From Nesterenkonia ebinurensis (GTDB taxonomy: Bacteria > Actinomycetota > Actinomycetes > Actinomycetales > Micrococcaceae), in contig NZ_VWNF01000032.1 of NCBI RefSeq assembly GCF_008711175.1, forward strand, positions 248,001 to 312,000: a DNA stretch of 64,000 nucleotides, in the 5' to 3' direction. Positions 17,788 through 32,068 of this stretch are shown piece by piece. The translations under genes and the position numbers were made by a program. The notes below the pieces were generated by a model. It had not been told where the DNA came from. It searched no databases and saw only the letters and a list, made by a program, of their open reading frames with translations. Numbering within the stretch: the first letter of the stretch is position 1; every line of letters starts with the position of its first letter.

Positions 17788-18545
17788 ATGGGCATCACGA
17801 TCTCGGATTGGAACCAGTCCTGCAGCGCCCACACCCAGGTGTTCCAGATACCAGTGACCATCAGCACCCCGATCAGGATGAGCATGGCACCGCCGGCGCG
17901 CATCACGGTGAGCTTGTGCCGCTTGAAGAAGTCCAGGGCCCGCATGCCGCGCTGCAGCCCGAGGCTGATCAGGATGAACGGCACCCCGAGTCCGAGGCAG
18001 TAGACGAATACCAGTAGGGCGCCGCGAGCGTGCTCGGCTCCGGAGGGATTGCCCAGCACCATGGCGAGCACTGCAGCCAGGGTGGGGCCCATGCAGGGCG
18101 CCCAGCCGATGCCGAAGGTGGCGCCCAGCAGCGGGGCACCCAGCAGACCGTCGGGCGGGCGGCGGTGGATTTTGGCCTCCTGCTGGAAGAAGCTGAAGGC
18201 GCCCATGAAGATCAGTCCCATCAGGATGACCACTCCGCCGAGTACCTGGGTGACCCAGCCGCCTTCGAAGCGCAGCCAGGCAGTGGCCTGGACGAACACC
18301 GCGCCGATGAGCAGGAACACCACGGAAAACCCGAGCACGAACAGGGTGGCGCCCAGCACCATGCGGGAGCGGGCGCGGTCGGCCAGCTCTGCCCCGGACA
18401 GCCCGGTCACGTAGCCGAGGTAGCCGGGCACCAGCGGAAGAACGCAGGGGGAAAGGAAGGAGACCAGTCCGGCCAGCAGGGCCACCGGTGCGGCCAGCAG
18501 CAGGGAGCCGTCGGCGGCAATCTCCGCGAAGGGGTTGTTCCCCAT
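17784..18545 (-). CDS. ccdA: CcdA-type cytochrome c biogenesis / thiol-disulfide membrane protein
   Basis: Carries reducing power from cytosolic thioredoxin across the membrane to ResA. 253 residues with six helices. The two redox cysteines of the family are in FLSPCVLPLVPGY (helix 1) and IGWAPCMGPTLAA (helix 4). The start ATG 18545 overlaps the resA stop and its own stop overlaps resB, so resA-ccdA-resB-ccsB form one tightly coupled operon. Confidence 0.95.
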   Translation of the reverse strand: MGNNPFAEIAADGSLLLAAPVALLAGLVSFLSPCVLPLVPGYLGYVTGLSGAELADRARSRMVLGATLFVLGFSVVFLLIGAVFVQATAWLRFEGGWVTQVLGGVVILMGLIFMGAFSFFQQEAKIHRRPPDGLLGAPLLGATFGIGWAPCMGPTLAAVLAMVLGNPSGAEHARGALLVFVYCLGLGVPFILISLGLQRGMRALDFFKRHKLTVMRAGGAMLILIGVLMVTGIWNTWVWALQDWFQSEIVMPI

Positions 18546-19240
18546 CAGGCCTCTTCGAGCGCGGTGCTGATCAGGGCGCGCAGCGTGCCCGGTTCCACGA
18601 TGCCGCTGATGCTTGCCGAGACCCGACCTTGGCGGTCCAGCACCAGGGTGGTGGGCACCGCGGAGGGGTGCACATAGCCGGTCATGGACATCAGCACGGT
18701 GCCGCTGCGGTCTTCCATGGAGGGGTAGGTGATGCCGAAGGTGCGCTCGAAGGCCTCCGCAGTGGCCTGGGTGTCGCGGGTGTTGACCCCGTAGAACTGC
18801 ACCCCGTCCGGCTCGAACTCCTCGTGGATGGCCTGCAGGTCGGGGGCCTCCACCCGGCAGGGGGCGCAGGCGGCGTACCAGAAGTTGATCACGGTGACCT
18901 CGCCCTGAAAGGTCTCCGGGGTGACCGACTCGCCCTGAAAGGTCTCAGACTCGAAAGCCACGGATTCGCCACGGCTGTCCGGGGCGAACTCTTGGACCGA
19001 ACCGTCACCGGCGACGTAGTTGGTGCCGTCATTGGAGGCGCGCTGGGCCAGATCGTCATTGCCGCTGGAGCCGCAGCCGGTCAGTGCCAGGGCAGAGATC
19101 AGCGCCGCCGCAGCTGCTGTACGCAGCGGGCGCCCGATTGAGCCGAGCGGAGACCAGCGCTTGCGCTGCGGCTCCTGAGGAGATTCAGGAGCGCTAACGG
19201 AGCGAGGACGACGTCGGGGCGGGTGAGCAGAACGCATCAC
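18545..19240 (-). CDS. resA: Thioredoxin-like lipoprotein ResA/TlpA
   Basis: Extracytoplasmic thiol-disulfide protein that keeps apocytochrome c cysteines reduced for haem attachment. 231 residues. A hydrophobic signal with lipobox ALTGC near residue 57 anchors it as a lipoprotein; the redox site is WYAACAPCR. The region before the signal peptide is unusually long (about 38 residues), and part of it (PLGSIGRPL) is read from the dispersed repeat at 19131-19210. A shorter start without it is conceivable but none has a clear ribosome-binding site. A palindromic operator lies at 19256-19276, just before the start. Confidence 0.9.
   Translation of the reverse strand: MMRSAHPPRRRPRSVSAPESPQEPQRKRWSPLGSIGRPLRTAAAAALISALALTGCGSSGNDDLAQRASNDGTNYVAGDGSVQEFAPDSRGESVAFESETFQGESVTPETFQGEVTVINFWYAACAPCRVEAPDLQAIHEEFEPDGVQFYGVNTRDTQATAEAFERTFGITYPSMEDRSGTVLMSMTGYVHPSAVPTTLVLDRQGRVSASISGIVEPGTLRALISTALEEA
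19131..19210 (+). repeat. Dispersed coding repeat, copy C (inside resA 5' end)
   Basis: Core GATTGAGCCGAG at 19136-19147 and hairpin CAGCGC-TT-GCGCTG at 19155-19168, at the same place as the different-sequence hairpin in copy B. It is read in a different frame from copies A and B and lies ahead of the ResA signal peptide. Confidence 0.72.
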
Positions 19241-19255
19241 CGCACAATTCTACAG

Positions 19256-19276
19256 TTTTCTACGACCGGTAGAAAA
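19256..19276. promoter_or_regulatory. Palindromic operator TTTTCTAC-N5-GTAGAAAA upstream of resA
   Basis: Perfect 8-bp arms (19256-19263 and 19269-19276) around GACCG, ending 16 bp before the resA start. The same palindrome, with 9-bp arms and a 5-nt spacer, is in the divergent doxX/flavoprotein promoter at 31519-31541. The CTAC/GTAG half-sites recall operators of the BlaI/CopY family, but the regulator is not known. Confidence 0.7.
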
Positions 19277-19287
19277 GCTGCGTGGGA

Positions 19288-19764
19288 TCAGCCGCCGATA
19301 CCGGGGATGGAGTCGAACATGTTCTGTTCGTATTCGTCGTAGCAGGCCTGGGTGGAACGCTCGGTGACCGCGCTGCGCAGGCACTGGTCAAACTGTACGC
19401 TGGCCTCCCAGAATACGGCTTGGAAGCTGGCGGAGAAGAGAAAGAACCCGAAGCAGACGATGAAGATCACTGAGGCTACGGTGGTGCTCATCACCAGCTT
19501 CTTGCGGATCGCATGCACCAGCAGCACCACCGCACCCGCCAGGCCGGCCAAGGAAGCGGCGATGGTCACCAGGCGCCAGGGCAGGGGCATCTGCAGACCC
19601 GCATAGCCGATGATCAGTGCCAGGATCAGCCATCCGATGAACCGGGAGTAGAACCGCCGGGTCTCATCATCGAACTTGGGACGGTCCTTGCGATCCTTTG
19701 CGGTCTTGTCCGGGCGCGGCACCGGCGGGGTGGTGGGCTGGCCCGGGGGCGGAGTGGCACTCAT
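19288..19764 (-). CDS. Three-helix membrane protein, function unknown
   Basis: 158 residues: a proline-rich, basic N-terminus (about 30 residues), three hydrophobic helices (about 45-60, 68-86 and 91-115) and a C-terminal extracytoplasmic segment with two cysteines (QCLRSAVTERSTQACYDEYE). No family recognised. The gene lies in the same orientation as resA, upstream of it, and is divergent from purN. The resA operator lies between the two. Confidence 0.65.
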   Translation of the reverse strand: MSATPPPGQPTTPPVPRPDKTAKDRKDRPKFDDETRRFYSRFIGWLILALIIGYAGLQMPLPWRLVTIAASLAGLAGAVVLLVHAIRKKLVMSTTVASVIFIVCFGFFLFSASFQAVFWEASVQFDQCLRSAVTERSTQACYDEYEQNMFDSIPGIGG

Positions 19765-19787
19765 GACGCCTACCAGCTTATAGGCTG

Positions 19788-20399
19788 ATGCTTATGCGAT
19801 TAGTGGTGCTGGTCTCCGGTTCGGGGACGAATCTTCAGGCGATCATCAATGCTGAGGCCGCCGGAGAGCTGGCCGGCGACGGCTGGAGCGTAGAGATCGC
19901 AGCGGTGGGCTCCAACGTACCGGACTGCGGCGGGATCCAGCGGGCACAGAAGGTGGGGATCCTGACCTTTGCGGTGCCGCTGGAACGCGGTGCGACGCCG
20001 AACCGGCGGGCCGCCTGGAACCTGCAGCTGGCTGCGGCGGCCCGCACGCATCGCCCTGACCTGCTGCTGATCTCTGGGTTCAACCGGATCCTCTCAGCGG
20101 AGTTCCTCACCGCGGTCGGTGTCCCGGTGATCAACCATCACCCCTCGCTGCTGCCCAGCTTCCCGGGAAATCATGGAGTGCGCGATGCTCTGGCCCACGG
20201 GGTCAAGGTCACCGGCTGCACGGTGCACCAGGTGGATCCGGGGGTGGATACCGGCCCGATCCTGGCCCAGGCGGCAGTGGAGGTCAGAGCCGACGACGAC
20301 GTCAGCTCACTTCACGAGCGCATCAAGGTTCAGGAGCGCCGACTGCTGGTGGAGACGCTGGCTGGCATCGGCGCCGGGACCGTGGCACTCAGCGGGTAG
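19788..20399 (+). CDS. purN: Phosphoribosylglycinamide formyltransferase PurN
   Basis: Transfers formyl from 10-formyl-THF to GAR, third step of purine synthesis. Motifs: VSGSGTNLQAI at the N-terminus (phosphate binding), INHHPSLLPSFPGNHG with the catalytic His region, and HQVDPGVDTGPIL. 203 residues; ATG 19794 is an equally good start. Unlike the usual actinobacterial arrangement, purH does not follow. The 3' end overlaps the convergent gene at 20389 by 11 bp. Confidence 0.94.
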   Translation: MLMRLVVLVSGSGTNLQAIINAEAAGELAGDGWSVEIAAVGSNVPDCGGIQRAQKVGILTFAVPLERGATPNRRAAWNLQLAAAARTHRPDLLLISGFNRILSAEFLTAVGVPVINHHPSLLPSFPGNHGVRDALAHGVKVTGCTVHQVDPGVDTGPILAQAAVEVRADDDVSSLHERIKVQERRLLVETLAGIGAGTVALSG

Positions 20400-21246
20400 G
20401 CGGCTGGGCGCCGGGGTGGCCGCCGCCGTAGTAGGCCGAGCGCCGGACTTCCTTCTCCCACCGGCGGTGCCGGATGTATTCCGATGAGGCTGGCAGCCAC
20501 ATCATCACCACAGCCGCTGCGCTGCAGGCGATGGTAGCGGCGATGATCCCGTAGCTGGCCCCGTTGTGGCCCAGCAGCAGGAACGCCGGGCTGAGCCCGC
20601 ACCAGATAGTGGCGATGATCCGCCCGGGGTTTCCGGCCATGGACCCCACGAAGGCCAGGGTGATGTAGACCGCGAACAGGAATGCTGCCCAGCCCAGAGC
20701 GAAGAGTCCGATGCCGAACAGCAGGGTCTCCTCCAACTGCTGGGAGGTGAGATCTTGCAGCTCCGGGTCCTCGGCGGCCTGACGCTCCAGCTCGTCCTGG
20801 AAGGTCTCTGCAAAAGCGCCCCCGCCGAAAGCCTCATTGACGGTCTGCATGGGCAGGGTGGCCAATACATAGATGCCCCAGGTCAGTGAGGTCACTGCGG
20901 CACCCAGCAGCAGGATGAGCGCTGCCCAGAGCGTGCCCGGCCGCTTGGGCCGCTCCGGCAGGGCCTGGTGGCCCTGGGGGGGCGAACCGTCGACGGAGTC
21001 AGCCTCAGAGCGTTGCCCGTGACCTTCCTTCGGTGGTTCACCATAGGGGTTCGACGAGGCCGCGGTGCCGCCCGGCTGCCCCCAGGTGGGCTCTCCATAG
21101 GGGTTGTAGGGAGCACCGGAGTCTGAGGCGCCAGGATTCTCATCGGCTGTCTGCTCAGACTTAGGGGCGTAGGCGCCGTAGCGCGGCTGTGGGCGCTCCT
21201 GCTGGTTTTCAGGTGAGGAGGCGCCGTCGTACGGGGAAGAACTCAT
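20389..21246 (-). CDS. Membrane protein with proline/glycine-rich cytoplasmic N-terminus
   Basis: 285 residues from ATG 21246. The first ~120 residues are hydrophilic and low-complexity (repeated NPYGEP segments at about 46-70), followed by four hydrophobic helices, two before and two after an acidic extracytoplasmic loop (ETFQDELERQAAEDPELQ). The layout resembles actinobacterial DUF4190/DUF4064-like membrane proteins, but I see no decisive motif. The open frame upstream of 21246 is antisense to the phosphatase gene and is not coding. Confidence 0.7.
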   Translation of the reverse strand: MSSSPYDGASSPENQQERPQPRYGAYAPKSEQTADENPGASDSGAPYNPYGEPTWGQPGGTAASSNPYGEPPKEGHGQRSEADSVDGSPPQGHQALPERPKRPGTLWAALILLLGAAVTSLTWGIYVLATLPMQTVNEAFGGGAFAETFQDELERQAAEDPELQDLTSQQLEETLLFGIGLFALGWAAFLFAVYITLAFVGSMAGNPGRIIATIWCGLSPAFLLLGHNGASYGIIAATIACSAAAVVMMWLPASSEYIRHRRWEKEVRRSAYYGGGHPGAQPPTR

Positions 21247-21336
21247 GACACCAACTGTACTGCGCTGTGTGGAGTCACCGCGTGCTGAATATCCGTCGTT
21301 CTGAAAACTTGTGCAGAAACTGCAAGACTTGTGCCC

Positions 21337-22008
21337 ATGGCTGATACAGCGACAGCGACAGTTCATCTGGTCCGGCACGGCGAGGTCCACAACCCGCACA
21401 AGGTGCTCTACGGGCGGCTGGCCGGCTACGGGCTCTCCGAGCTGGGCCGGAAAATGGCCCAGGGCATCGCCGACTACTTCGGCGACCGGGCTGAGGCCGG
21501 CCGACCGGTGCATATACTGGCCGCTTCCCCGCTGCAGCGGGCTCAGGAGACCATCGCCCCGCTGGCCGAGCGGCTGGGCCTGCCGGTGATCACCGAAGAC
21601 CGGGTGCTGGAGGCTGAAAACGCCTTTGAGGGGCTCTCCAACGTCAAACGGCATCTGCGTACCCCGAAGTACTGGCCACTGCTGGTCAATCCGTTCCGGC
21701 CCTCCTGGGGGGAACCGTATAAGCAGCAGGTGGAGCGCGTGCTGCAGGCGGTCAAAGACCTCTCCGACCAGGCACTGGCCGAATACGGCGCAGGTGCCGA
21801 GGTGGTGATCGTCTCCCACCAGCTGCCCATCTGGGTCACCCGGCTCTGGGCCGAGCAGCGCCCACTCTGGCATGATCCCCGGCAACGCGAATGCACCCTG
21901 ACCTCGGTGACCTCGCTGCACATCGGGTCCGCCGGGGTGGAGTCGGTCAGCTACATCGAGCCGAATAAGGAGCTGAGCAAACAGGCGCTCGCCCTGCCTG
22001 GGGCATAG
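21337..22008 (+). CDS. Histidine phosphatase (phosphoglycerate mutase-like) family protein
   Basis: 223 residues from ATG 21337. The catalytic VHLVRHGEVHNP (nucleophilic His in RHG) is at residues ~9-20, the second arginine motif AASPLQRAQET follows, and the second catalytic His is in VVIVSHQLPIWV. Family members act as phosphoglycerate mutases, acid phosphatases or as other small-molecule phosphatases; the substrate cannot be told. There is little room for a leader and no ribosome-binding site, so a leaderless message is possible. It converges on the DUF6350 gene. Confidence 0.85.
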   Translation: MADTATATVHLVRHGEVHNPHKVLYGRLAGYGLSELGRKMAQGIADYFGDRAEAGRPVHILAASPLQRAQETIAPLAERLGLPVITEDRVLEAENAFEGLSNVKRHLRTPKYWPLLVNPFRPSWGEPYKQQVERVLQAVKDLSDQALAEYGAGAEVVIVSHQLPIWVTRLWAEQRPLWHDPRQRECTLTSVTSLHIGSAGVESVSYIEPNKELSKQALALPGA

Positions 22009-22020
22009 GCAGGGGTGCGC

Positions 22021-23334
22021 TCACTGTTGGGCGGCGGAGAAGGACTCTTCCTCGGCGTCGTCGTCCTCCTGAGTGCGACGACGTGGAGTTGCCTGCTTTG
22101 CCGCGGCGGTGAGTGAGTAGCCAAGCACGGTGCCCAGTGCCACCCAGCCGCCCAGCAGCATGGCGGTGATGCCGGCATGTGGGCCGATATCGTTCATTGC
22201 GCCCACACCGAGCGAGATATGGGAGAGCCACAGCGGGCCGATCATCAGGGCGGCAGCTACTGTCCCGGTGAGCACACCGAGCGTCACGGTGGAGACGGTT
22301 ACTGAGACTGGCCTGAGCTTGAGCTTCAGCTGGCACCAGTCGTCAAAGTGGTTCTCGCCTTCGCGCATCAGCCACCAGCCAGCGATCACCCCGGCCAGTA
22401 CCGGCAGCGCTAGAGCCAGCAGTGAGTACTCGTAGACCTGGTCCGGCAGAGCGGCGAGCACCGGCACAGCAGGGACCGCGACCAGCTCGGTCTCCAACGG
22501 AGAGACTGGGGAGCCAGTGCCCATGCTGAAGCCGGCACCGGTGGAATAGGCCAGAGCCCACAGCAGCAGGTTCGGGGCCAGGCCAAGGTGCAATAGAGTC
22601 AGACCGGCCCCACCGGTGATCCCGGCATCAAGCTCCTGGTAGGAGTTGGCCACATCCATCCAGCGCCAGCCGAGCCATCCGACCATCAGCACTGCTGAGA
22701 GTCCCACTGCGGCCACAGCCGCCACAGCCCCGCCGCGCAGCACAGCCCACAAGTAGGCGAAGGCCCACTTCAGCCGTTCGGAGAGTCCCTCGACCGCTGC
22801 CTCCAGGTCCACTCCGATCATCCGGGTGGCGCTGCGGGCCTCGGCATAGCATCCGGCCAAAGAGCCAATACCCACCAACAGACCGGGTGCCACTCCGGCC
22901 CACACTAGGGTCCCGGGGTCCCCGATCCCGTAGCGGGCCACACCGACTCCGGCCGCGGCGTATCCGAGAGTGAAGGCCAGCAGGCCCTGCCAGAGTTGGG
23001 TGGGGTAGGCGCCTTGAGCCAGCCGCCGCCCAGCCCGCCAGGCCAGCAGGAACGGCACCAGGGTGAAGCCCAGAGGCACTAGGTGGAACCAGTTTGAGTC
23101 GCCGTTCTCAGCAAAATTCAGCGGGGCGGCATGCACCACCAGCCACACCTGAGAGGCGAACTCAGCTGAAGACTGCGGGTCGAAGTCCCGCCAGTTCCGG
23201 GCAAGGGAAGAACCCAGAACCGGCACCGCCACCAGCAGCGCTGTGGCCAGTACTGCTTGCACCGCCTCGAACAGGCCGAAAAGCCACAGCGGTGGGGTGG
23301 GAAGTCTGCGCATCGGTTCCATGGTGCCATCCAC
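22021..23334 (-). CDS. DUF6350-like integral membrane protein
   Basis: 437 residues, with about ten hydrophobic helices over nearly the whole length and a short charged C-terminus (RRRTQEDDDAEEESF). The pattern near the N-terminus (WLVVHAAPLNF...FHLVPLGFTLVPFLLAWRAGRRLA) matches actinobacterial DUF6350 proteins, which commonly neighbour purN/purH and sucCD. Both sets are nearby here but rearranged. Function unknown. Confidence 0.8.
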   Translation of the reverse strand: MDGTMEPMRRLPTPPLWLFGLFEAVQAVLATALLVAVPVLGSSLARNWRDFDPQSSAEFASQVWLVVHAAPLNFAENGDSNWFHLVPLGFTLVPFLLAWRAGRRLAQGAYPTQLWQGLLAFTLGYAAAGVGVARYGIGDPGTLVWAGVAPGLLVGIGSLAGCYAEARSATRMIGVDLEAAVEGLSERLKWAFAYLWAVLRGGAVAAVAAVGLSAVLMVGWLGWRWMDVANSYQELDAGITGGAGLTLLHLGLAPNLLLWALAYSTGAGFSMGTGSPVSPLETELVAVPAVPVLAALPDQVYEYSLLALALPVLAGVIAGWWLMREGENHFDDWCQLKLKLRPVSVTVSTVTLGVLTGTVAAALMIGPLWLSHISLGVGAMNDIGPHAGITAMLLGGWVALGTVLGYSLTAAAKQATPRRRTQEDDDAEEESFSAAQQ

Positions 23335-23484
23335 ATGGCTCTCGGCCAGGCAACGGCACAGAAGATATGGGACTCAGGTGCTGAGAGTGAGAGCCGAAAC
23401 TGACTATTACCGTAATGCCTCACGGTCAAGTCCCCGGGAAATGATTACTTTCCATGTGGGAAAACCACAGATAGACTTTCCGTC

Positions 23485-23934
23485 ATGGAAACTCATGGAA
23501 CTCAGGCGCAGGAGTCCCTGGAAGCAGTGGCCAAGATGCGAGAGCACAATCAACGCCGACTTATCCGCCCGCGGCGCTACTGGGTGATGCTCAGCGGAAT
23601 GATGGCACTCCTCAGTCTGCTTCCCTATATGGATGAGTGGCCCTTCTACCTCAGTGCTGCAGTGATCATCGCCGTAGCACTTGTGCTGGTCCTGGCTGCG
23701 TCCTGGAAGCAACCGAGCGCCTCCCGTAAGACACGGTTCAACTTCCGGGCCATCCCAGTGTTTCTAGTGCTGGTGCTGGGCATCGCGGTCTTGGTGATGG
23801 GCAGCCGCTACGCCTATACAGGCCTGGACTGGTGGTGGGCGCCGGCTCTCAGCGCGGTGCTGATCTTCGGGTTCGTGAACTGGGCCGGCCCCGTGATGGA
23901 CAGAGCGTGGGTGCGCGGAGCATCATCAGTATGA
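23485..23934 (+). CDS. Four-helix membrane protein paired with HTH regulator
   Basis: 149 residues. A short basic N-terminus (KMREHNQRRLIRPRRYW) is followed by four helices (about 32-48, 55-72, 89-107 and 114-135). The gene overlaps the following HTH regulator by ATGA, an arrangement common for a two-gene unit in actinobacteria in which a small membrane protein is co-expressed with a PadR/MarR-like repressor. Function unknown. Confidence 0.75.
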   Translation: METHGTQAQESLEAVAKMREHNQRRLIRPRRYWVMLSGMMALLSLLPYMDEWPFYLSAAVIIAVALVLVLAASWKQPSASRKTRFNFRAIPVFLVLVLGIAVLVMGSRYAYTGLDWWWAPALSAVLIFGFVNWAGPVMDRAWVRGASSV

Positions 23935-24263
23935 ACTCCGAGCAGCCACCTCTTCCGCCGCTGAATCCCGTGATCCATCCTGTGTCCCGGCTGCGCATCT
24001 GCGCACTTCTGGATCCGGTCACCGAGGAAGGGTTCGGTGAGCTCCGCGATCTGCTGGAGGTCTCAGACTCCGCATTGAGCAAACAGCTGGCGGCTTTGGC
24101 TGAGGCCGGGTATCTCGAACAGCGCCGGACCAAGCGCGGGGGCAGGAGCCGGGTGAGGGTGCGCCTGACGGATCAGGGCCGCCGAGCATACCGGACACAT
24201 GTCACAGCACTCCAGGCATTGACCGCACTTGCTCCTGAGGCCCGAACCACAACACCGCACTGA
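23931..24263 (+). CDS. Winged-helix transcriptional regulator (HTH_34/MarR-like)
   Basis: 110 residues from ATG 23931, overlapping the previous gene by 4 bp. The winged-helix is complete: RLRICALLDPVTEEGFGELRDLLEVSDSALSKQLAALAEAGYLEQRR... with recognition helix SDSALSKQLAALAEAGY and a basic wing (KRGGRSRVRVRLTDQGRRAY). This is the HTH_34 (PF13601) pattern of small actinobacterial regulators. It probably controls its own operon; no palindrome was obvious upstream of 23485. Confidence 0.85.
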   Translation: MNSEQPPLPPLNPVIHPVSRLRICALLDPVTEEGFGELRDLLEVSDSALSKQLAALAEAGYLEQRRTKRGGRSRVRVRLTDQGRRAYRTHVTALQALTALAPEARTTTPH

Positions 24264-24633
24264 GCACCCCTGTTGCGTGTCTGGGTGACACCGGGCACTG
24301 TGCGTGGCTGCTCACGCACCGCTGCGAGAAAGCAGATGAGCCTGCGCTGCCTGGTCCCGGCGGCTGGGAAACCCGCTCGGCTCTGGGCCGTGTGCGGTGG
24401 CCGCGGCCTTCGCGTCTAAAGACATAGAGGAGGGACGACGAGGCAGGGGGGGAGAGCCCTTCTCCGCCGCAGCCCAGTTGTGAGCGGAGCACCTCACCCA
24501 GGCTTTGCTCCAGCTCCAGCTCCAGCTCCAGCTCCAGCTCCGACCATCACATCCATAAACGTTCAGAAAGTGTTTACCCGACACGCACCTATTCGTGGGG
24601 GTCCGGATACTTGAATCGCCCACTGTAAGGGGC
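24264..24633. other. Intergenic region with GCTCCA microsatellite upstream of glycosyltransferase
   Basis: About 370 bp without a supported gene. It contains (GCTCCA) repeated 5.7 times at 24507-24541 and a less GC-rich stretch ATAAACGTTCAGAAAGTGTTTACCC at 24553-24578 which probably holds the promoter of the next gene. Short open frames across the microsatellite look non-coding. Confidence 0.6.
24507..24541 (+). repeat. Hexanucleotide tandem repeat (GCTCCA)5.7
   Basis: Five perfect GCTCCA units plus GCTCC, ending about 90 bp before the glycosyltransferase start. A slippage-prone tract in a promoter/leader position. Confidence 0.85.
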
Positions 24634-25848
24634 GTGAGGGTTGTAGTAGTTGCTGAGTCTTTCCTGCCGCATGTGAACGGAGTGACTAACTCCGTTCTGC
24701 AGGTGCTGTCCCATCTCCGCCGGCGCGGGGACCAGGTGACAGTCATCGCTCCCTCCGACTCTTTTCTCGACTCAAACCCCCTGGCTGAGCAGCTGCCCGA
24801 CCAGCCCGAGCTGTGCAGCGGCTTCCCGGTGATCCGGGTGCCCTCGCTGCCGCTTCCCGATTACCCCAAAGTGCGAGTGGCCGCCGGGTTCGTGATGCGA
24901 ATCCGGCACCTCTTTGAGCAGCTGCAGCCCGATGCGGTACACGTGGCCAGCCCCTTCGTACTGGGCTGGCGTGCCATCCAGGCCGCCGAGGCCCTGGGCC
25001 TGCCCACCGTCTCCATCTACCAGACCGAGGTCCCCACCTACGCGGCCCGCTATAGGCTGCCCTGGGCCGAGGAGCTGCTGTGGAACCACGTGCAGCGGAT
25101 GCACAACACCTCTACCCTGACCCTGGTGCCCAGCTCCTTCTGCAAGACCCAGCTGCGCGAGCGCGGCATCCAGCGGCTGAAGACCTGGCGGCGCGGCGTG
25201 GACCTGGAGCGGTTCACCCCGGCGAAGCGCTCCGGGGAGCTGCGCGCGACGATCGCGCCCAATGGTGAGAAGCTGATCGGTTTTGTGGGCCGGCTGGCCG
25301 CTGAGAAGCAGATCGAGGACCTGGCCGTACTGGACTCAATGCCCGGCACCCAGCTGGTGATCATCGGCACCGGACCGGAGGAGAAGCCGCTGCGGAAGAA
25401 GCTGCCTAACGCGTACTTCGCCGGATTCCAGTCCGGGGAGGACCTGGGGACCCATGTGGCAAGCCTGGATGTGTTCGTCCACCCCGGTGAGGCCGAGACC
25501 TTCTGTCAGACCATCCAGGAGGCTTTTGCCGCTGCGGTGCCGGTAGTGGCGGTGGCCCGCGGCGGGCCTCTGGACCTGGTAGACCCGGGCCGCACTGGGT
25601 GGCTCTACTCTCCCGGCGACCTGGAGGGGATGCGTGCGGCAGTAGAGCATTTGATCACCGACGACGCCGCCCGAGCGGACTTCTCCACCCAAGCTCACCA
25701 GGAAGTCCAAGGCCGCACCTGGGAGGCGATCTGCAACCAGCTGATCGGCCACTACGCCCGAGCCATTGATGTCAACGCGCGGCTGCAGTCCCGCCGCGCC
25801 AAGCAGTTCATCTCCTCCGGCTGGTTAGGGACCCTGCTCCCCCCGTAG
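24634..25848 (+). CDS. GT4-family glycosyltransferase (mannosyltransferase-like)
   Basis: 404 residues from GTG 24634; the frame extends to GTG 24595, so the start is uncertain. The N-terminal FLPHVNGVTNSVLQVLSHLRRRG and the C-terminal HPGEAETFCQTIQEAFAAAVPVVA (EX7E donor-site motif) mark a retaining GT-B enzyme of family 4. The sequence resembles GDP-mannose-dependent alpha-mannosyltransferases of actinobacteria (PimB/MgtA type) acting on membrane glycolipids. That specificity is inferred from family knowledge, not from residues alone. It converges on the App1-like gene with inverted-repeat copy 2 between them. Confidence 0.85.
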   Translation: MRVVVVAESFLPHVNGVTNSVLQVLSHLRRRGDQVTVIAPSDSFLDSNPLAEQLPDQPELCSGFPVIRVPSLPLPDYPKVRVAAGFVMRIRHLFEQLQPDAVHVASPFVLGWRAIQAAEALGLPTVSIYQTEVPTYAARYRLPWAEELLWNHVQRMHNTSTLTLVPSSFCKTQLRERGIQRLKTWRRGVDLERFTPAKRSGELRATIAPNGEKLIGFVGRLAAEKQIEDLAVLDSMPGTQLVIIGTGPEEKPLRKKLPNAYFAGFQSGEDLGTHVASLDVFVHPGEAETFCQTIQEAFAAAVPVVAVARGGPLDLVDPGRTGWLYSPGDLEGMRAAVEHLITDDAARADFSTQAHQEVQGRTWEAICNQLIGHYARAIDVNARLQSRRAKQFISSGWLGTLLPP

Positions 25849-25876
25849 AAAGCCGCCACCGGGCCGCCGTACCCTC

Positions 25877-25942
25877 GAGTGCATGATTTGTGCAGTTGTT
25901 TCGGCTGATTCTGCCCCAAAACGTTGCTCAAATCATGCACTC
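25877..25942. repeat. Long inverted-repeat element, copy 2 (18-nt arms, 30-nt loop)
   Basis: Left arm GAGTGCATGATTTGTGCA (25877-25894), identical to copy 1; right arm 25925-25942, pairing at 17 of 18 positions; loop of 30 nt. It lies between two convergent genes, where it could serve as a bidirectional terminator. The loops of the two copies differ but share TTTCG on the left and CCAAA on the right. Confidence 0.8.
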
Positions 25943-25978
25943 AGCGGAAGCGGGTGGGCCGCGGAAGGTGGGACAAGC

Positions 25979-27136
25979 TCAGAGCAGGTCATACTCGGTG
26001 AGGGTCTGGGAGATGTCCTTCCCGTCGGGCCCGTAGATCCATGGAATCCGGTACTGACCCACCTCCTGGATGCCGGGAGGGTGCTCCCCCGTCTCGGTGA
26101 CTTTCAGCAGTTCCTCGCCGTCGGGCTGCTCGGCACGACCACCGGCCAGCACCGCCTCCGAGTAGGTCAGCTCCCGGATGATCACGGCTTTGACTGAATC
26201 CGGGTGCTTTCGGGCAAAGTCGGCATAGATGCTGGGATCGTGCTGGCCGTCGTCGCCGATTAGGATCCATTTGATCTGCGGGAATTCCTCGGCCAGCCGG
26301 GCCAGCTGCTCCACCTTATGGCGCTGCCCGGAGCGGAACCAGCGGTCCTCGGTGGGCCCCCAGTCGGTCAGCAGCAGCGGGCCGAAGGGATAGAGGTTCC
26401 GGGTCAGGAACCGGGTCAGCGTCTGTGCCACATTCCAGGCTCCGGTGGACACGTAGATCACCGGAGAGCCGGGTGAGGCCTGGAGCAGTCGCTCCATCAT
26501 CACTGCCATCCCGGGGGTGGGGGTGCGGGCGTGCTCATCGAGTACAAAAGAGTTCCACGCCGCCAGGAAGGGGCGCGGCAGCTTGGTGACCACCACGGTG
26601 TCGTCAATATCGCAGACGATCCCGTCAGTCACCTCGTCGCTGATGATCTGCACTTCGGCGGCGGTGGGCTCCGCACCCGGGGCCTCCAGGATAATCTCCT
26701 GCCATCCGGGCTCCAGCTCAGCTCCGGCGGGCAGTTCGATGACCGCATCGACAATGCCCCCGCGGTCGGCAGCGATATTGAACTGGTGGCCTGCCACCTG
26801 CGCGGTGACCTCGGCGAAGGGCACCGGAGCGGAGACGAAGTTGCGCCAGCCGCGCACCCCGTCAGCAATCACTTTGGCCACCCTCCGGCCGCCTTCGAAC
26901 TGAGAGTCCGGGGCCATCACAATCCGGGAGAAGAGCCGCACCCAGCGTGGCGAGCCGTAACCGGCCAGGGAGAGCACGGTGACGTCCTGACCGCGTTTGC
27001 GCGCCAGGTTCAGCCGCAGCTGGTGCCAGCGATCCTCGATCTTCATGGCACGGTTGCGCGCGCGGTTGGAATAGTGCGTCCGCAGGGCGGCGAGATCTTG
27101 GGAGACCTCAGTGGACTGAGGCTGCTGGGTGCTCAT
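25979..27136 (-). CDS. App1-like phosphatase (DUF2183)
   Basis: 385 residues from ATG 27136. The C-terminal half carries the haloacid-dehalogenase-like motif IVCDIDDTVVVT (DxDxT) at about 193-204, STGAWN (motif II) and LIGDDGQHDPSIY (motif IV), which together define the App1/DUF2183 phosphatase domain. In yeast App1 is a phosphatidate phosphatase; bacterial homologues are uncharacterised. The N-terminal ~180 residues contain a beta-rich segment. It is downstream of, and in the same orientation as, the MFS gene. Confidence 0.85.
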   Translation of the reverse strand: MSTQQPQSTEVSQDLAALRTHYSNRARNRAMKIEDRWHQLRLNLARKRGQDVTVLSLAGYGSPRWVRLFSRIVMAPDSQFEGGRRVAKVIADGVRGWRNFVSAPVPFAEVTAQVAGHQFNIAADRGGIVDAVIELPAGAELEPGWQEIILEAPGAEPTAAEVQIISDEVTDGIVCDIDDTVVVTKLPRPFLAAWNSFVLDEHARTPTPGMAVMMERLLQASPGSPVIYVSTGAWNVAQTLTRFLTRNLYPFGPLLLTDWGPTEDRWFRSGQRHKVEQLARLAEEFPQIKWILIGDDGQHDPSIYADFARKHPDSVKAVIIRELTYSEAVLAGGRAEQPDGEELLKVTETGEHPPGIQEVGQYRIPWIYGPDGKDISQTLTEYDLL

Positions 27137-27176
27137 CACTGCCCATCCTAATGAAGATGCCACGGGGCAGAAGACG

Positions 27177-27194
27177 ACGACGCCGCGGCGTCGT
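27177..27194. other. 18-bp perfect palindrome between MFS and App1 genes
   Basis: ACGACGCCGCGGCGTCGT is self-complementary along all 18 positions. It lies in the 67-bp gap between the MFS stop (27204) and the App1 start (27136). It contains no loop and no T-run, so it is more like a protein-binding site than a terminator. Its half, GACGACGCC, recurs often in the window. Confidence 0.6.
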
Positions 27195-27203
27195 GATCTG
27201 TGC

Positions 27204-28724
27204 TCACACCGTGGTGCGCAGCGGGACTTCCTTGATGAGCAGATTGCAGAGCACAGCGATGGTGGTGATGACCGCGGCGATCAGGAACAGGGTGCCGGTG
27301 GCCTCGGCGTAGATCGGGTTGGTGCCGTTGGTTGGTGTGACAGAGGCGGTGCCCACGGCGACGGCCATCACCGAACCGAGGATGGCAGTGCCGGCGGCCC
27401 CGCCGAGGATGCGGCAGAAGGCGATGAGACTTGATGCCTGGCCGACCCGGGTCACCGGCACAGTGTTTTGCACCACCAGCATCAGGTTCTGCATCTGGGC
27501 GCCGAAGCCCAGGCCGGTGACCGCCAGGGCGGCGATGATCAGCCAGACCGGGGTGTCCGGACCGAGGATGAAGGCCAGGGTGAACATCGAGGCGCTCATC
27601 ACTAGCGAACCGGAGACAATATAGACTTTCCAGTAGCCGTATCGGGTGATCAGCCGCCCGGTGGTCAGCGCACCGAGCATATTGCCCAGCACCATGGGTA
27701 CCAACATCAGCCCCGCCTCAGTGGGTGAGAATCCACGGCCGATCTGGAAATACTGGGCCAGGAACAGCATGCAGGAGAACAGTGCCGGAGCGATGGCCGC
27801 CGATGAGATCGCAGCCAGTACGGTGGTCCGGTCGCGCAGCATGCCCAGCTGCACGATGGGATTGGCCATCCGACGCTCCACCAGCACGAATACGGTGATA
27901 GTCACCGCCGCACCGGTAAACAGCAGCACCGAAGGCCAGGAGACCCAGGCAAAGAACTCAGGTGTCCCGGCGAAGGAGAGCCAGATCAACAGAGCGCTGC
28001 AGCCGGTGACCAGCAGCAGCAGTCCGGGGATGTCGATCTTGCCGGGGGAGGCTATCTGGGGGACGCGAAGCTTCCAGTGCACCACCACCAGGGCCAGCAG
28101 ACACAGCGGGATGCCCACCCAGAAGCACCAGCGCCAGCCGAGGGTGTCCACGGTGAGTCCGCCGATCAGTGGCCCGGCGGCGGTGGCCACGGCCAGCACC
28201 GCCCCGATGTAGCCGGCGTACTTGCCGCGTTCGCGGGGCGCGACGATGGAGGCCATAATCGCCATGGCCAGGGAAATCAGCCCACCCATGCCGATGCCCT
28301 GGACCACCCGGGCAGCGATGAGGAAGTCCATAGTAGGGGCAAACCCCGCGGCCACGGAGGAGAGCAGGAAGATGCCGTTGGCCAGCTGGAAGAGCGTCTT
28401 CTTGGAGTACATGTCGGCGAGCTTGCCCCAGACCAGGGTGGAGGAAGCATTGGCCAGCAGCAGGCCGGTGAGCACCCATGCGTACTGGATCTGGGTGCCG
28501 CCGAGCTCGGAGACGATCACCGGCAGGGCAGTGATCACGATGTTCATCGAGAGCATCGCGGCGAAGAAGACCACCAGGATTCCGGTGATGGCCCAAGCCA
28601 GCTCCGCGCCGGTGGCTGAGGCCACCCGAGGGGACTCAGGCTGCGCAGTAGCTGCCGGAGCCGGGTTCAGGGAGGGCTCCGGCTCCGCGCTGGTGTCCTG
28701 AGAGCCCGAGGATTTTAGTTGCAT
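27204..28724 (-). CDS. MFS multidrug efflux transporter (DHA2/14-helix type)
   Basis: 506 residues with about 14 helices. The family motif A-like GKLADMYSKKTLF follows helix 2, and the motif C-like region GPLIGGLTVDTLGWRW, typical of drug:H+ antiporters of the EmrB/QacA class, is in helix 5. The first ~35 residues are a polar tail. Likely exports toxic compounds or metabolites; the substrate is unknown. An AACTAGTT palindrome at 28732-28739 lies just upstream of the start and may be an operator, but no regulator gene is adjacent. Confidence 0.88.
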   Translation of the reverse strand: MQLKSSGSQDTSAEPEPSLNPAPAATAQPESPRVASATGAELAWAITGILVVFFAAMLSMNIVITALPVIVSELGGTQIQYAWVLTGLLLANASSTLVWGKLADMYSKKTLFQLANGIFLLSSVAAGFAPTMDFLIAARVVQGIGMGGLISLAMAIMASIVAPRERGKYAGYIGAVLAVATAAGPLIGGLTVDTLGWRWCFWVGIPLCLLALVVVHWKLRVPQIASPGKIDIPGLLLLVTGCSALLIWLSFAGTPEFFAWVSWPSVLLFTGAAVTITVFVLVERRMANPIVQLGMLRDRTTVLAAISSAAIAPALFSCMLFLAQYFQIGRGFSPTEAGLMLVPMVLGNMLGALTTGRLITRYGYWKVYIVSGSLVMSASMFTLAFILGPDTPVWLIIAALAVTGLGFGAQMQNLMLVVQNTVPVTRVGQASSLIAFCRILGGAAGTAILGSVMAVAVGTASVTPTNGTNPIYAEATGTLFLIAAVITTIAVLCNLLIKEVPLRTTV

Positions 28725-28769
28725 TTGCGAACTAGTTTACGCCTCGGTCAGTAGAACCTCAACCTAAGC

Positions 28770-29885
28770 TCAGCCCACGGTGGCGCCCAGCAGGGAACCG
28801 AGTGCATAGGTGATGACTGCTGCGCCCAGGCCGATGGCCAGCTGGCGTAGTGCACGCTTCAGTGGTGAGGCGCCGGAGAGCAGGCCGACCACCGCGCCGG
28901 TACCCAGCAGCGCAATGCCCACCAGAGCTGTGGAGACTCCCACAGCCAGCCAGCCTGCCGCCCCGAACAGATAGGGCAGGATGGGGATGAGGGCGCCCAC
29001 CGCAAAGAAACAGAAGCTGGAGCCGGCGGCAGTCCAGGCCGAGCCCACCACCTCGTGATCGTCCCAGGGGTCCTCAATAGCCTGGTCTGCACCGGCGTGC
29101 GAGCGGGAGGGATTGCAGTCGCACTCGAACACGCCCAGCCGCTCTAAGGCCCGGTGCTCGGCATCTTCTTCGCTCAGCCCGCGGGCCCGGTAGACCAGCA
29201 CCAGCTCATTGTGGTCGAAGTCCAGATCCGGGGCTGCTTGGAGTGTGGCTTGGGTGGGCCGGGTGGCATCCAGCAGCTCCCGCTGGCTGCGCACTGAGAT
29301 GAACTCCCCGGCCGCCATGGACAGGGCCCCTGCCAGCAGCCCGGCGATCCCGGTCATCAGCACCACGGTGGCCCCCACCCCGGTGCCACCCATGCCCATG
29401 ATCAGAGCAAAGTTGGAGACCAGCCCGTCATTAGCTCCGAAAACTGCGGCGCGGAACCCGCCGGAGAGCTTCTCCCGGCCTCGGGCTGCCAGGGCGCGGA
29501 CCACCTCCTCATGGATCTCCTCATCAGCGGCCATCCCGCGGGTGGCGTCCAGGTCCTCGTCATAGGGGGATTCGCCCTCTGCCCGCTGAGCTAGGGCAAG
29601 CACAAAGACTGAGCCGAAGACTCGGGCCATCCAACCCAGCAGCACCCGGTGCACCGACGGGGCAGGCAGCTTCTCAGCATGCGGGCCCAGCAGCTGGCGC
29701 CAATGCTCCTGGTGACGCTTCTCCGCCTCCGCCAGGCCCAGCAGGATCTGTCGCTCCTCCCCTGATTTCTTCCGGGCCAGCTGCTCGTAGAGCTTCGCCT
29801 CAGCAATCTCATCGGCCAGGTACTTCCGCCAGCGCCGGATCTGCTTGGCCGAGGGTTCACGGGCAGGCGCTGGGGAGGTGCTCAC
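28770..29885 (-). CDS. Ferritin-like/VIT1 fusion membrane protein (MbfA/Er-VIT1 type)
   Basis: 371 residues from GTG 29885. The N-terminal domain (about 15-150) is ferritin/rubrerythrin-like, with iron-ligand-type motifs AEAEKRHQEHW and DEEIHEEVVRAL. The C-terminal half (about 160-370) is a five-helix VIT1/CCC1 iron-manganese transporter domain (GGFRAAVFGANDGLVSNFALIMGMGG). This arrangement is known as MbfA/Er-VIT1, an iron exporter in Agrobacterium and Bradyrhizobium. The role here in Fe2+/Mn2+ detoxification is inferred from that family. No Irr/Fur box was recognised upstream. Confidence 0.87.
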   Translation of the reverse strand: MSTSPAPAREPSAKQIRRWRKYLADEIAEAKLYEQLARKKSGEERQILLGLAEAEKRHQEHWRQLLGPHAEKLPAPSVHRVLLGWMARVFGSVFVLALAQRAEGESPYDEDLDATRGMAADEEIHEEVVRALAARGREKLSGGFRAAVFGANDGLVSNFALIMGMGGTGVGATVVLMTGIAGLLAGALSMAAGEFISVRSQRELLDATRPTQATLQAAPDLDFDHNELVLVYRARGLSEEDAEHRALERLGVFECDCNPSRSHAGADQAIEDPWDDHEVVGSAWTAAGSSFCFFAVGALIPILPYLFGAAGWLAVGVSTALVGIALLGTGAVVGLLSGASPLKRALRQLAIGLGAAVITYALGSLLGATVG

Positions 29886-29974
29886 TCTTCCTATAGTGCC
29901 CTGTCGAGTGGGCCGGCGTCGTCGTACTCTCTGGTGTGACGAATCTTCAGCACGCCTAAGCGTTTGGGCTCTCC

Positions 29975-30871
29975 TCAGGTGTGCAGAGCGAACTGAGTGA
30001 AGATCCGCTGGGCAGTGGGGGCGACGACGCCGGGGCCAAGTCCCACATAACCGGTGGTCAGGTGCAGATCTTCCGTTTCGGTGCCGTCCCAACTGCGCTC
30101 CCCTCGAGAGCCCAGGGGGAGGAACCGTCCACCAGCGCGGCGCAGGATCAGCTGCCCGGCGGCGATGTCCCAAGGATTGGTACGCCGGTTAGCCGCGATA
30201 TCGGCCCACCCCGCTGCCGCATAGCACAGTTCCAGAGCCCCGGAGACGATGCGCCGGACGGTGGCATAGGTAGTGACGAGTTGGCCGAAGGCGCGCAAGG
30301 CAGCATCACCGTGCGCAGCCACCGCACTCTCGCCGGGGAAATCGGTGAGCAGGTTCAGCTGGGGCTCGGCAACCCCTATCTTGGGGGTGGGTCTCAGTAC
30401 AGACTCCGGGGCAGTGCTGGTCTGCAGGTAGGCGGCGGCGTCATCTGCGGAGAAGGTCAGTTCGTTGATCGGGTCATAGACCACCCCGGCGATGACCACA
30501 TCATCGACCGCGGCACCCACCGAGATGGTGAACAGGTCGAAACCGTGGGCGAAGTTGGAGGTGCCGTCGATGGGGTCGATGATCCACTCCACCCGGCCGC
30601 TGCCCTGCTGGCCGCCCTCCTCCCCGGTGATCCGGGAGTCCGGAACCTCGGCGGTGAGCAACTCGATCAGGGTCTCCTCAGTCCGGCTATCCCAGATGGT
30701 GACCAGATCCGTGTTGGAGGTCTTCTCCTGGACCTCCATCTGGGAGCGGAAGGCGCCCTTCAGCGGCATCCCAGCGGCGTGGGCGGCGGTGAGGGCAACC
30801 TTCCGCAGTTCGGCGGGGGTCGGCAGTTCGGCGGCATCGGGCAGGGCTGGGTCTTCAGGAGAGTGACTCAT
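29975..30871 (-). CDS. Inositol monophosphatase family protein
   Basis: 298 residues. The three metal-binding motifs are visible: GEEGG (glutamate), WIIDPIDGTSNFAHG (DPxDGT) and, near the C-terminus, NPWDIAAGQLILRRAGG (WD). Substrates of the family include inositol phosphate, histidinol phosphate and fructose-1,6-bisphosphate. Without a his operon or inositol genes nearby I leave it open. It is upstream of the ferritin-VIT1 gene and downstream of doxX, all on the minus strand. Confidence 0.88.
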   Translation of the reverse strand: MSHSPEDPALPDAAELPTPAELRKVALTAAHAAGMPLKGAFRSQMEVQEKTSNTDLVTIWDSRTEETLIELLTAEVPDSRITGEEGGQQGSGRVEWIIDPIDGTSNFAHGFDLFTISVGAAVDDVVIAGVVYDPINELTFSADDAAAYLQTSTAPESVLRPTPKIGVAEPQLNLLTDFPGESAVAAHGDAALRAFGQLVTTYATVRRIVSGALELCYAAAGWADIAANRRTNPWDIAAGQLILRRAGGRFLPLGSRGERSWDGTETEDLHLTTGYVGLGPGVVAPTAQRIFTQFALHT

Positions 30872-30904
30872 GCCCTCTACCCTATTGCTGGAACGGTTGA
30901 GTAC

Positions 30905-31420
30905 TCAGTGCAGCCAGGGAGCCTTGGCGGTGAGCTTCTGCCAAGGCCCGGCCAGGGAGAGCTTCTGGTGGGCGAGCACCAGTGGGAAGACCAGCACGAT
31001 GACCGCCTGGATCAGGTTGTAGTTGACCACTGGGTTGGTGGCGATCGGGAAGGCTGCTGCCCACATCAGTATCAGCATCGCCATTGCTGCCAGAGAGGAT
31101 ATCCGCACTGCGATGCCGGCGATGAGCCCGATTCCCACCCCGAGCAGTCCCAGCATAAAGAGCACTTCGACAATCTTCAGGTCAGCAAGAGGCTCGAAGA
31201 CGCCGTCCAGGGCGCGTTCGGCACTCAGGTAGCCGTAGGTGGGTGAAACGCCGTGAATCCATCCCTGACCGGCGGGAGTGTTGAAGGTCAGCCCGAAAGT
31301 CTTGTCCAGGAAAGCCCACAGGAACTCGAATCCGATGAGGATTCTCACCACTGCCAGCACATACCAGACCGCGCTGCGGGATCGGACAGTATCTGGGGTA
31401 CGAACTGGTGCATCAGCCAT
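30905..31420 (-). CDS. DoxX-like membrane protein
   Basis: 171 residues with four hydrophobic helices. The N-terminal helix VRILIGFEFLWAFLDKTFGL, the following GWIHGVSPTYGYL loop and a glycine-rich helix (LLGVGIGLIAGIAVR) fit the DoxX/terminal quinol oxidase subunit family. Its promoter region is shared with the divergent flavin-binding protein gene and contains the same palindrome as the resA promoter, which suggests a redox or respiration link. Confidence 0.82.
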   Translation of the reverse strand: MADAPVRTPDTVRSRSAVWYVLAVVRILIGFEFLWAFLDKTFGLTFNTPAGQGWIHGVSPTYGYLSAERALDGVFEPLADLKIVEVLFMLGLLGVGIGLIAGIAVRISSLAAMAMLILMWAAAFPIATNPVVNYNLIQAVIVLVFPLVLAHQKLSLAGPWQKLTAKAPWLH

Positions 31421-31518
31421 AGCGGCTCTCCTGACCCCGGGGGCCTGCGACGTGAGAGGCGACGGTCAACGGCGGCCCCCGAATGTGGCTCCATCGCCGT
31501 CACGCTTAGTCTAGCAAG

Positions 31519-31541
31519 TTTTTCTACAAGTCGTAGAAAAA
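31519..31541. promoter_or_regulatory. Palindromic operator TTTTTCTAC-N5-GTAGAAAAA in doxX/flavoprotein divergent promoter
   Basis: Perfect 9-bp arms (31519-31527 and 31533-31541) around AAGTC. It lies 99 bp before doxX and 57 bp before the flavoprotein start. It is the second instance of the motif found before resA (19256-19276), so a common regulator is likely. Confidence 0.75.
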
Positions 31542-31597
31542 GTCAGTACAATGGGCATTACCAGGGGCAATGAGGTCCTTGATATGAGGTGGAGAGG

Positions 31598-32068
31598 ATG
31601 ATTTTCATGATGTTTGACCACCCGAATAATAACCCGATACTGGTGCTCACCGAGGACCAGTGCTGGAAGCTGCTAGAAGGAACCCAGCACGGAAGGCTGG
31701 TCGGCTCCGTAGGGGGCCGGATCGACATCTTTCCGGTGAATATCGTGGCCCAGGATCACAGCATCGTGTTCCGCACCGCTCCGGGCACCAAGCTTGCCCA
31801 GGTGGCAGTGAATGAAAATGTGCTGATCGAGGCCGACGGGATTCTCTCGGATCAGGCATGGTCAGTGGTGGTGCGTGGCACTGCGAAGCTGCTGGAGACT
31901 GCTGCGGAGATCGCCGAGGCTGAGACCCGGGGCCTGCAGCCCTGGGTTCCCGGCCCCAAGGAGCAGTTCGTACAAGTCACCCCTGCTGAGATCAGTGGCC
32001 GGCACTTCGCCTTCGGGCCTTACCGGGACCGCGAGCTCGGCGAGGGCTCAGAGGCTGGCGGCGACTGA
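31598..32068 (+). CDS. Pyridoxamine 5'-phosphate oxidase-fold flavin-binding protein
   Basis: 156 residues from ATG 31598; further ATGs at 31607 and 31610 are also possible given the purine-rich GAGGTGGAGAGG just upstream. The pattern LTEDQCWKLLEGTQHGRLVGSVGGRIDIFPVN is typical of small FMN- or F420-binding proteins of the split beta-barrel PNPOx fold in actinobacteria (PF12900-like). Biochemical role unknown, possibly nitro- or quinone reduction. It is controlled from the shared palindromic operator at 31519-31541. Confidence 0.82.
   Translation: MIFMMFDHPNNNPILVLTEDQCWKLLEGTQHGRLVGSVGGRIDIFPVNIVAQDHSIVFRTAPGTKLAQVAVNENVLIEADGILSDQAWSVVVRGTAKLLETAAEIAEAETRGLQPWVPGPKEQFVQVTPAEISGRHFAFGPYRDRELGEGSEAGGD

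Follow-up and report, generated by a model that had tools for sequence, protein, structure and literature searches.

Two copies of one palindrome lie in promoter regions of the window

In a 64,000-nucleotide stretch of the Nesterenkonia ebinurensis genome (contig NZ_VWNF01000032.1, positions 248,001–312,000; hereafter the window), we identified two copies of a palindrome with the core TTCTAC-N5-GTAGAA, analysed here as the putative operator of a BlaI-family repressor. Operator 1 (TTTTCTACGACCGGTAGAAAA) occupies positions 19256–19276, with its core at 19258–19274, in the 47-bp gap before resA. Operator 2 spans positions 31519–31541 between two divergent genes, with the 21-mer TTTTCTACAAGTCGTAGAAAA at 31520–31540 and the core at 31522–31538; no strand is assigned to either element. 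These were the only two palindromes in the window with at most three mismatches, compared with an expectation of 0.02, and none of 100 shuffles yielded two. A preliminary description of the stretch had held that two palindromes with the same arms and the same N5 spacing, both in promoter position, were very unlikely to have arisen by chance. The coordinates and these statistics confirm that both palindromes are real, and both indeed lie in promoter position.

The genes behind operator 1 are encoded on the minus strand and comprise a resA-like thiol-disulfide oxidoreductase of the AhpC-TSA/ResA type (18545–19240; best NCBIfam match ResA, under its curated cut-off), a ccdA-like (DsbD_TM, CcdA-type) cytochrome c biogenesis protein (17784–18545; PF02683), resB (16021–17832; PF05140, E 6.5e-137) and a resC/ccsA-type cytochrome c assembly protein (14834–16021; PF01578). 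Operator 2 is flanked on the plus strand by the gene of a putative flavoprotein with the PNPOx fold (31589–32068; Pyridox_ox_2, PF12900, by Pfam scan) and on the minus strand by that of a 171-aa small membrane protein (30905–31420). The family scans support the assignment of the ResA, CcdA-type, ResB and cytochrome c assembly proteins and of the flavin fold; the name doxX, previously attached to the 171-aa protein, is tentative, as neither Pfam (at E 0.001) nor NCBIfam (at E 0.1) gave a match for it.

Sequence inspection placed the -10-like hexamer TAGAAT of a putative resA promoter at 19247–19252 (minus strand), and a -35 element at 17-bp spacing would sit at 19270–19275, within operator 1. 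Because the possible resA start codons (GTG at 19240, ATG at 19237) directly follow this hexamer, the resA transcript may be leaderless. For the PNPOx gene, the promoter scan returned TCTACA-18-TACAAT, with the -10-like hexamer at 31547–31552 (plus strand) and the -35 position within operator 2. The hexamer TAGACT at 31508–31513 (minus strand), also with its -35 position within operator 2, was recognised by inspection as a putative promoter of the 171-aa gene and was not picked up by the consensus promoter scan. Operator 2 would thus serve two divergent promoters.

This arrangement recurs at some other copies of the operator. In 32 of 113 unique, oriented sequence windows, TAnnnT begins 4–11 nt behind the operator, compared with 7 on the mirror side; for the narrower TAGA[CA]T the counts are 20 and 1. 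By eye, such a hexamer is visible behind the operators of resA, ctaB, ABC-ctaA, lysS, DUF3099, usp, PNPOx and the 171-aa gene. A -35 element at the usual spacing would lie in the operator, which would suit a repressor. A second half-site beside some operators was considered as a further part of the operator and rejected, because it is the -10-like hexamer as it appears on the opposite strand.

Exact sites across the genome precede respiratory, haem and regulator genes

The assembly (3.74 Mb, 50 contigs, 98.65% complete) was scanned with the motif and, as a control, with the reversed motif. For the 21-mer, with three mismatches allowed, there were 18 matches compared with one of the control; for the exact core there were 15 compared with none. 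When spacers from N2 to N9 were allowed, we found 16 matches (control 1), 15 of them with N5 and the sixteenth overlapping the ctaC site. The outer T/A letters of the operator are conserved only in part. A motif scan of the genome had been proposed in the preliminary description, with the reservation that matches scattered inside genes at chance frequency would speak against the motif; instead, the 15 exact sites lie before genes, respiratory genes and a BlaI-family gene among them. Three exact sites fall inside long open reading frames of the mechanical gene calling (L018, L028 and L029). Because the genes of relatives begin downstream of the site, this suggests wrong starts or a spurious reading frame.

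Neighbouring genes were named by Pfam and NCBIfam scans. Seven of the 15 exact sites precede respiratory or haem genes, namely the resA operon, ABC-ABC-ctaA, ctaB, SURF1 (with a glyoxalase-like gene, so named from its sequence, on the other side of the site), DUF3099-SURF1 (opposite a fabG-like gene), hemQ-hemH, and sdhC-sdhD-sdhA (opposite a manC-like gene, also named from its sequence). One more precedes the regulator gene blaI, which is followed by blaR. The others lie between the 171-aa and PNPOx genes, at usp, at carD and at an acetyl-CoA hydrolase/cation ATPase pair, and the three remaining ones adjoin small membrane proteins that have no family match. Sites with one mismatch number 10, of which 6 precede a CopD-CtaG fusion gene, atpB (138 bp ahead of the gene), a membrane protein gene followed by copC, ctaE-qcrC, ctaC-ctaD, and a class II tRNA synthetase gene that we read as lysS; four of these six are also among the 18 near-matches of the 21-mer (control 1). 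The other four, namely C18:11439, C42:322857 and two C3 sites near small unassigned genes, were not counted as targets. No gene for cytochrome bd subunit I (PF01654) was found in this genome. The earlier proposal of one operator for a redox, haem or metal regulon is therefore supported by exact or one-mismatch sites before haem A, oxidase, cytochrome c maturation, sdh, copper and ATP synthase genes.

The genome encodes a BlaI-family repressor and a BlaR-type protease lacking the penicillin-binding sensor domain

We found a single PF03965 (BlaI/MecI/CopY) gene in the genome (G000:C42:145392-145727), outside the window. Its product scores 85.3 bits against a cut-off of 22.6 (E 1.2e-23) and is 95% identical to BlaI of Nesterenkonia alkaliphila. 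A copy of the palindrome precedes this gene by about 60 bp, and blaR, the gene of a membrane zinc protease, follows it. The closest sequence match in the PDB is 2g9w (E 1.3e-14), which we take to be M. tuberculosis BlaI (Rv1846c). The stretch TTVLTVLxRLEKK, the presumed recognition helix, is near-invariant in 21 aligned BlaI sequences.

The half-sites had earlier been likened to those of BlaI/CopY-type regulators, and the BlaI side of that comparison holds in the form of a PF03965 gene with an upstream palindrome. The CopY side, in which the repressor itself would bind copper, is not supported. CopY repressors carry a C-terminal CxC copper site; the 112-residue Nesterenkonia BlaI has one cysteine and no cysteine cluster, and it shares with the CopY/TcrY proteins the PF03965 family and a best NCBIfam match to CopY_TcrY that stays below the cut-off (34.8 bits compared with 121.95). 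A CopY-type copper repressor was ruled out on these grounds. The protein also falls far below the curated NCBIfam cut-offs for BlaI/MecI.

BlaR (326 aa; L022:6284-7264, minus strand) contains an HExxH motif and passes the M48 cut-off (41.5 bits compared with 20.3) but not that of M56 (19.6 compared with 31). No further Pfam domain was detected in it at E 0.001, and it has no penicillin-binding sensor domain. In an alignment of 40 hand-chosen sequences out of 98 available (97 locus matches and the N. ebinurensis protein), HExxH and E231 are invariant in all 40. An AlphaFold model built from these 40 sequences reached a pLDDT of 89.3. Foldseek returned no match to this model at E ≤ 0.001. In a second structural comparison S. 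aureus BlaR1 ranked first (Z 11.1, rmsd 5.1, 218 aligned, model residues 4–287), with BepA and ZMPSTE24, both within 1.5 Z units, and another peptidase close behind at Z 9–10; for helical models, Z below about 13 can reflect a common arrangement. The remainder of the modelled protein is one helix. Based on this, BlaR is predicted to have a BlaR1-like fold.

Cys158, which belongs to an AYCLPG motif shortly before HExxH, is likewise invariant in the 40 aligned sequences and is a possible redox- or metal-sensing residue. A BlaR-like match with HExxH accompanies 97 of 99 blaI loci, some genomes being counted twice. One of the two misses is N. alkaliphila (G015, L066), in which blaI and blaR lie about 7 kb apart on one contig; in nearly all other loci looked at, the two genes are close together.

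The operator is conserved within Nesterenkonia

The exact core occurs 4 to 23 times in each of 24 congeners, with 0 or 1 control matches. We scored conservation at the two window loci on the best-scoring gene copy per genome, N. ebinurensis included; the resA copy of G014 holds two stops, and further resA copies in G005, G007, G011, G015, G018 and G022 as well as two further PNPOx copies are outside the count. Upstream of the best resA match, the site is exact in 20 of 30 genomes and present with at most one mismatch in 27, compared with none of 30 for the control at either stringency. The PNPOx gene is absent from 5 of the 30 genomes, and a site with at most one mismatch accompanies it in 15 of the 25 that have it (control 0). 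The expectation that close relatives would carry the motif before the same genes is thus borne out for resA and is less general for PNPOx. Congener G004 has its doxX-like and PNPOx genes apart from each other, with a separate site at each (L132 and L150).

Five congeners contain 71 exact sites, 70 of which, all except C65:105 of G009, were taken into 67 loci with hand-assigned target categories. Thirty-nine of these loci lie before respiratory, haem or copper-assembly genes, 2 before blaI, 23 before other genes, and 3 have no assignment. The 39 include two cydA loci with tandem exact sites, found in two of the five congeners. Around blaI itself, CTAC-N5-GTAG is present within 140 bp in all 21 Nesterenkonia-group loci. 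In congener G020 (L144), a SodC-type gene (PF00080) precedes the operator and another, lipoprotein-like gene comes after it.

The blaI-proximal palindrome extends beyond the genus

A blaI match was obtained in 107 of 120 Micrococcaceae genomes. The 6 Nesterenkonia genomes in this set average 15.3 sites compared with 2.2 for the control, and the 97 genomes of other genera with a closer blaI average 6.12 compared with 2.04, the sites exceeding the control in 90 of the 97. Four genomes with only a distant BlaI were kept as a separate group (1.00 compared with 0.25). In the 13 genomes lacking a blaI match, blaR was not found either (13 of 13), and sites average 0.15 compared with 1.69 for the control. 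In other Micrococcaceae genera, CTAC-N5-GTAG occurs in one to three copies within 300 bp of blaI at 19 of 24 loci. We collected 50 site loci from these genera (47 distinct), and the 27 distinct loci with assigned targets comprise cydA/blaI, hemQ, ABC-ctaA, ctaB, the resA operon, qcrC, copC-type and PNPOx genes. Separately, in two Micrococcaceae genomes (L215 at 1518, L229 at 1462), the operator lies between genes for an Rrf2-type regulator and a flavohaemoglobin-type protein, the latter confirmed by Pfam at L215; both loci are among those that have no assigned target.

Across the class, BlaI was matched in 133 of 197 genomes. Of the 29 best loci other than that of N. ebinurensis, 22 show a cydA-like gene divergently upstream, 21 carry CTAC-N5-GTAG no more than 350 bp from blaI, and all 29 have blaR. 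Across 20 more distant, hand-chosen blaI loci, the corresponding counts are 6, 7 and 19. Families f17, f30 and f36 have cydA divergent from blaI with CTAC-N5-GTAG in between, the cydA-like genes of f30 being only 29–33% identical; f6, f32, f38 and f47 have divergent cydA and no exact CTAC-N5-GTAG. The exact 17-mer was rejected as an order-wide constant, as it was present in 0 of 14 genomes from other families of the order. In family f19, which we guess to be mycobacteria-like, none of 7 loci has CTAC-N5-GTAG upstream of blaI, and several have a TACGAC-N5-GTAGTAA-like sequence.

Proposed BlaI regulon and its relation to known systems

We consider it likely that TTCTAC-N5-GTAGAA is the operator of an autoregulated BlaI-family protein that represses genes of respiration and oxidase assembly, and that this repression is lifted by a BlaR protein lacking a beta-lactam sensor. 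The computed features (sites, promoter position, conservation, autoregulatory placement, joint absence with blaI and blaR, and the BlaR1-like fold model) are consistent with a mechanism for which we infer physical binding, repression, proteolysis and signal. The winged-helix BlaI would bind the operator as a dimer and would repress its own gene and probably also blaR. Its predicted regulon includes ctaA and ctaB (haem A synthesis), hemQ-hemH (haem assembly), the resA operon (cytochrome c maturation), ctaC-ctaD and ctaE-qcrC (oxidase and bc subunits), the assembly and copper genes for two SURF1 proteins, the CtaG/CopD fusion and CopC, as well as sdhCDA and ATP synthase; the PNPOx protein, the 171-aa membrane protein, usp, carD and lysS would be members of unclear role. 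At promoters whose -10 hexamer stands close behind the operator, binding of the dimer would mask the -35 region and keep RNA polymerase out. Failure of the respiratory chain, or of metal or haem supply, would lead BlaR to remove BlaI and so turn on the whole set together.

Several observations weigh against this proposal or restrict its reach. When the 12 arm bases may differ at up to two positions, sites are not commoner than the control (101 compared with 120), and this class was dropped as uninformative. The ctaE, ctaC, atpB, copC, ctaG and lysS sites belong to the one-mismatch class, which has no control of its own. The genes usp, carD, lysS, acetyl-CoA hydrolase/Ca-ATPase, fabG and those of the small membrane proteins fit poorly into a regulon of respiration alone. 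A -10-like hexamer 4–11 nt behind the operator is found in just the 32 of 113 windows given above, there is no clear excess of TAnnnT at 15–24 nt (16 compared with 11), and for sdhC, blaI and hemQ the nearest candidate hexamer by eye is 18–22 nt away. The PNPOx site is missing in 10 of the 25 genomes with the gene and before all five further copies. Five of the 24 blaI loci from other Micrococcaceae genera, all five from a single genus, lack the palindrome, and 20 of the 47 distinct site loci from these genera have no assigned target with the query proteins used. The 13 genomes that lack blaI belong to three genera and represent few independent losses.

Closest to the proposed regulon is the BlaI (Rv1846c)/BlaR (Rv1845c) system of M. 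tuberculosis, for which published work describes binding of BlaI to the cytochrome bd and ATP synthase promoters and the absence of an extracellular sensor from the mycobacterial BlaR (PMC5473688, citing Sala 2009), as well as binding of BlaI at the Rv1303-atp promoter in an electrophoretic mobility shift assay (PMC12565901). Both systems pair a PF03965 repressor with a sensor-less BlaR. Of the mycobacterial target types, ATP synthase has in N. ebinurensis only the putative one-mismatch site before atpB, and no cydA was found in this genome; sites before cydA were seen in the two congeners, there in tandem, and in other families. In contrast to the mycobacterial system, the Nesterenkonia sites reach haem A, cytochrome c maturation, oxidase/bc, SURF1, CtaG, hemQ-hemH and sdh genes, no beta-lactamase target was seen, and the operator is TTCTAC-N5-GTAGAA. 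Given these reports on M. tuberculosis BlaI, the proposed regulon extends a known kind, and most likely carries the mycobacterial precedent over to a large part of aerobic respiration together with the assembly factors. Among the matches listed in a literature search (open-licence papers, titles and starts of abstracts, for the terms used), no BlaI regulon comprising SURF1 genes or genes for haem A or cytochrome c maturation appeared. The staphylococcal BlaI/BlaR1 and MecI/MecR1 systems also combine a repressor with a membrane metalloprotease, and the BlaR model aligns with the membrane and protease parts of BlaR1; unlike them, the Nesterenkonia BlaR lacks the penicillin-binding sensor, its BlaI lies below the BlaI/MecI cut-offs, and the neighbours of its putative operators are respiratory. 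More tentatively, sensor-less BlaI-BlaR pairs across Actinomycetia could act as a proteolytic switch responding to the condition of the respiratory chain, possibly via Cys158 of BlaR, and controlling terminal oxidases and their assembly, with beta-lactamase control as a side branch.

Alternative explanations

The signal to which the regulon responds might be copper, a reading that we regard as possible though doubtful. The CtaG/CopD fusion, CopC, SURF1 and ctaA/ctaB targets match the bc1-aa3 biogenesis set and copper-deprivation stimulon described for C. glutamicum, which includes CtiP (a CopD-CtaG fusion), CopC, Surf1, CtaA, CtaB and ResA-type genes (PMC9145763), and the SodC-like gene of congener G020 also stands beside a site. 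In the text consulted, nothing connected that set with a BlaI operator. However, sites also accompany cydA (for a copper-free oxidase) and the genes for a flavohaemoglobin, hemQ-hemH, sdhC and ATP synthase, here or in relatives, and a general signal of respiratory failure fits these targets at least equally well. Nor does BlaI, with its one cysteine, have the cysteine cluster of CopY-type repressors.

Alternatively, a regulator of an unrelated family could bind the palindrome, with blaI merely one of its targets. The CTAC/GTAG arms alone identify no protein, and the assignment of the operator to BlaI is based on sequence. We consider this improbable, given the lack of site enrichment in the 13 of 120 Micrococcaceae genomes that have no blaI match, the operators before blaI across genera and the near-invariance of the presumed recognition helix. 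Similarly improbable is a classical beta-lactam response, in which BlaI would control beta-lactamase and cell-wall genes and the respiratory sites would be secondary. The name and family point that way, and one report calls the M. tuberculosis homologue the major repressor of blaC (PMC8265638); yet no recognised beta-lactamase gene was found among the neighbours of the sites examined, and BlaR shows no additional Pfam domain, with a single helix outside its BlaR1-like residues 4–287. Chance or low-complexity palindromes of no function, which the behaviour of the two-mismatch class would suit, have negligible probability: taken together, the exact sites refute them through their number and through the same promoter positions being kept in congeners, and only single sites may be exceptions.

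Implications for oxidase supply and for membrane proteins of no assigned family

The oxidases of actinobacteria depend on a joint supply of haem A, haem c and copper, and to our knowledge little has been described, beyond a few models, of how this supply is coordinated. If the proposed BlaI regulon is correct, a single repressor from a family named for penicillin resistance would coordinate much of the oxidase supply pathway, and what the sensor-less BlaR perceives would become a question testable in harmless bacteria. The target list would also suggest a respiratory or copper role for the unnamed membrane proteins that share the operator. Membrane proteins of this kind, with no family match, are encoded next to the operator at L020:3550-3948, L034:3625-3990, L031:3298-3981 and near position 4001 of L028. 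Their relatives in congeners carry the operator as well, which makes these proteins candidates for unknown respiratory or copper-handling functions.

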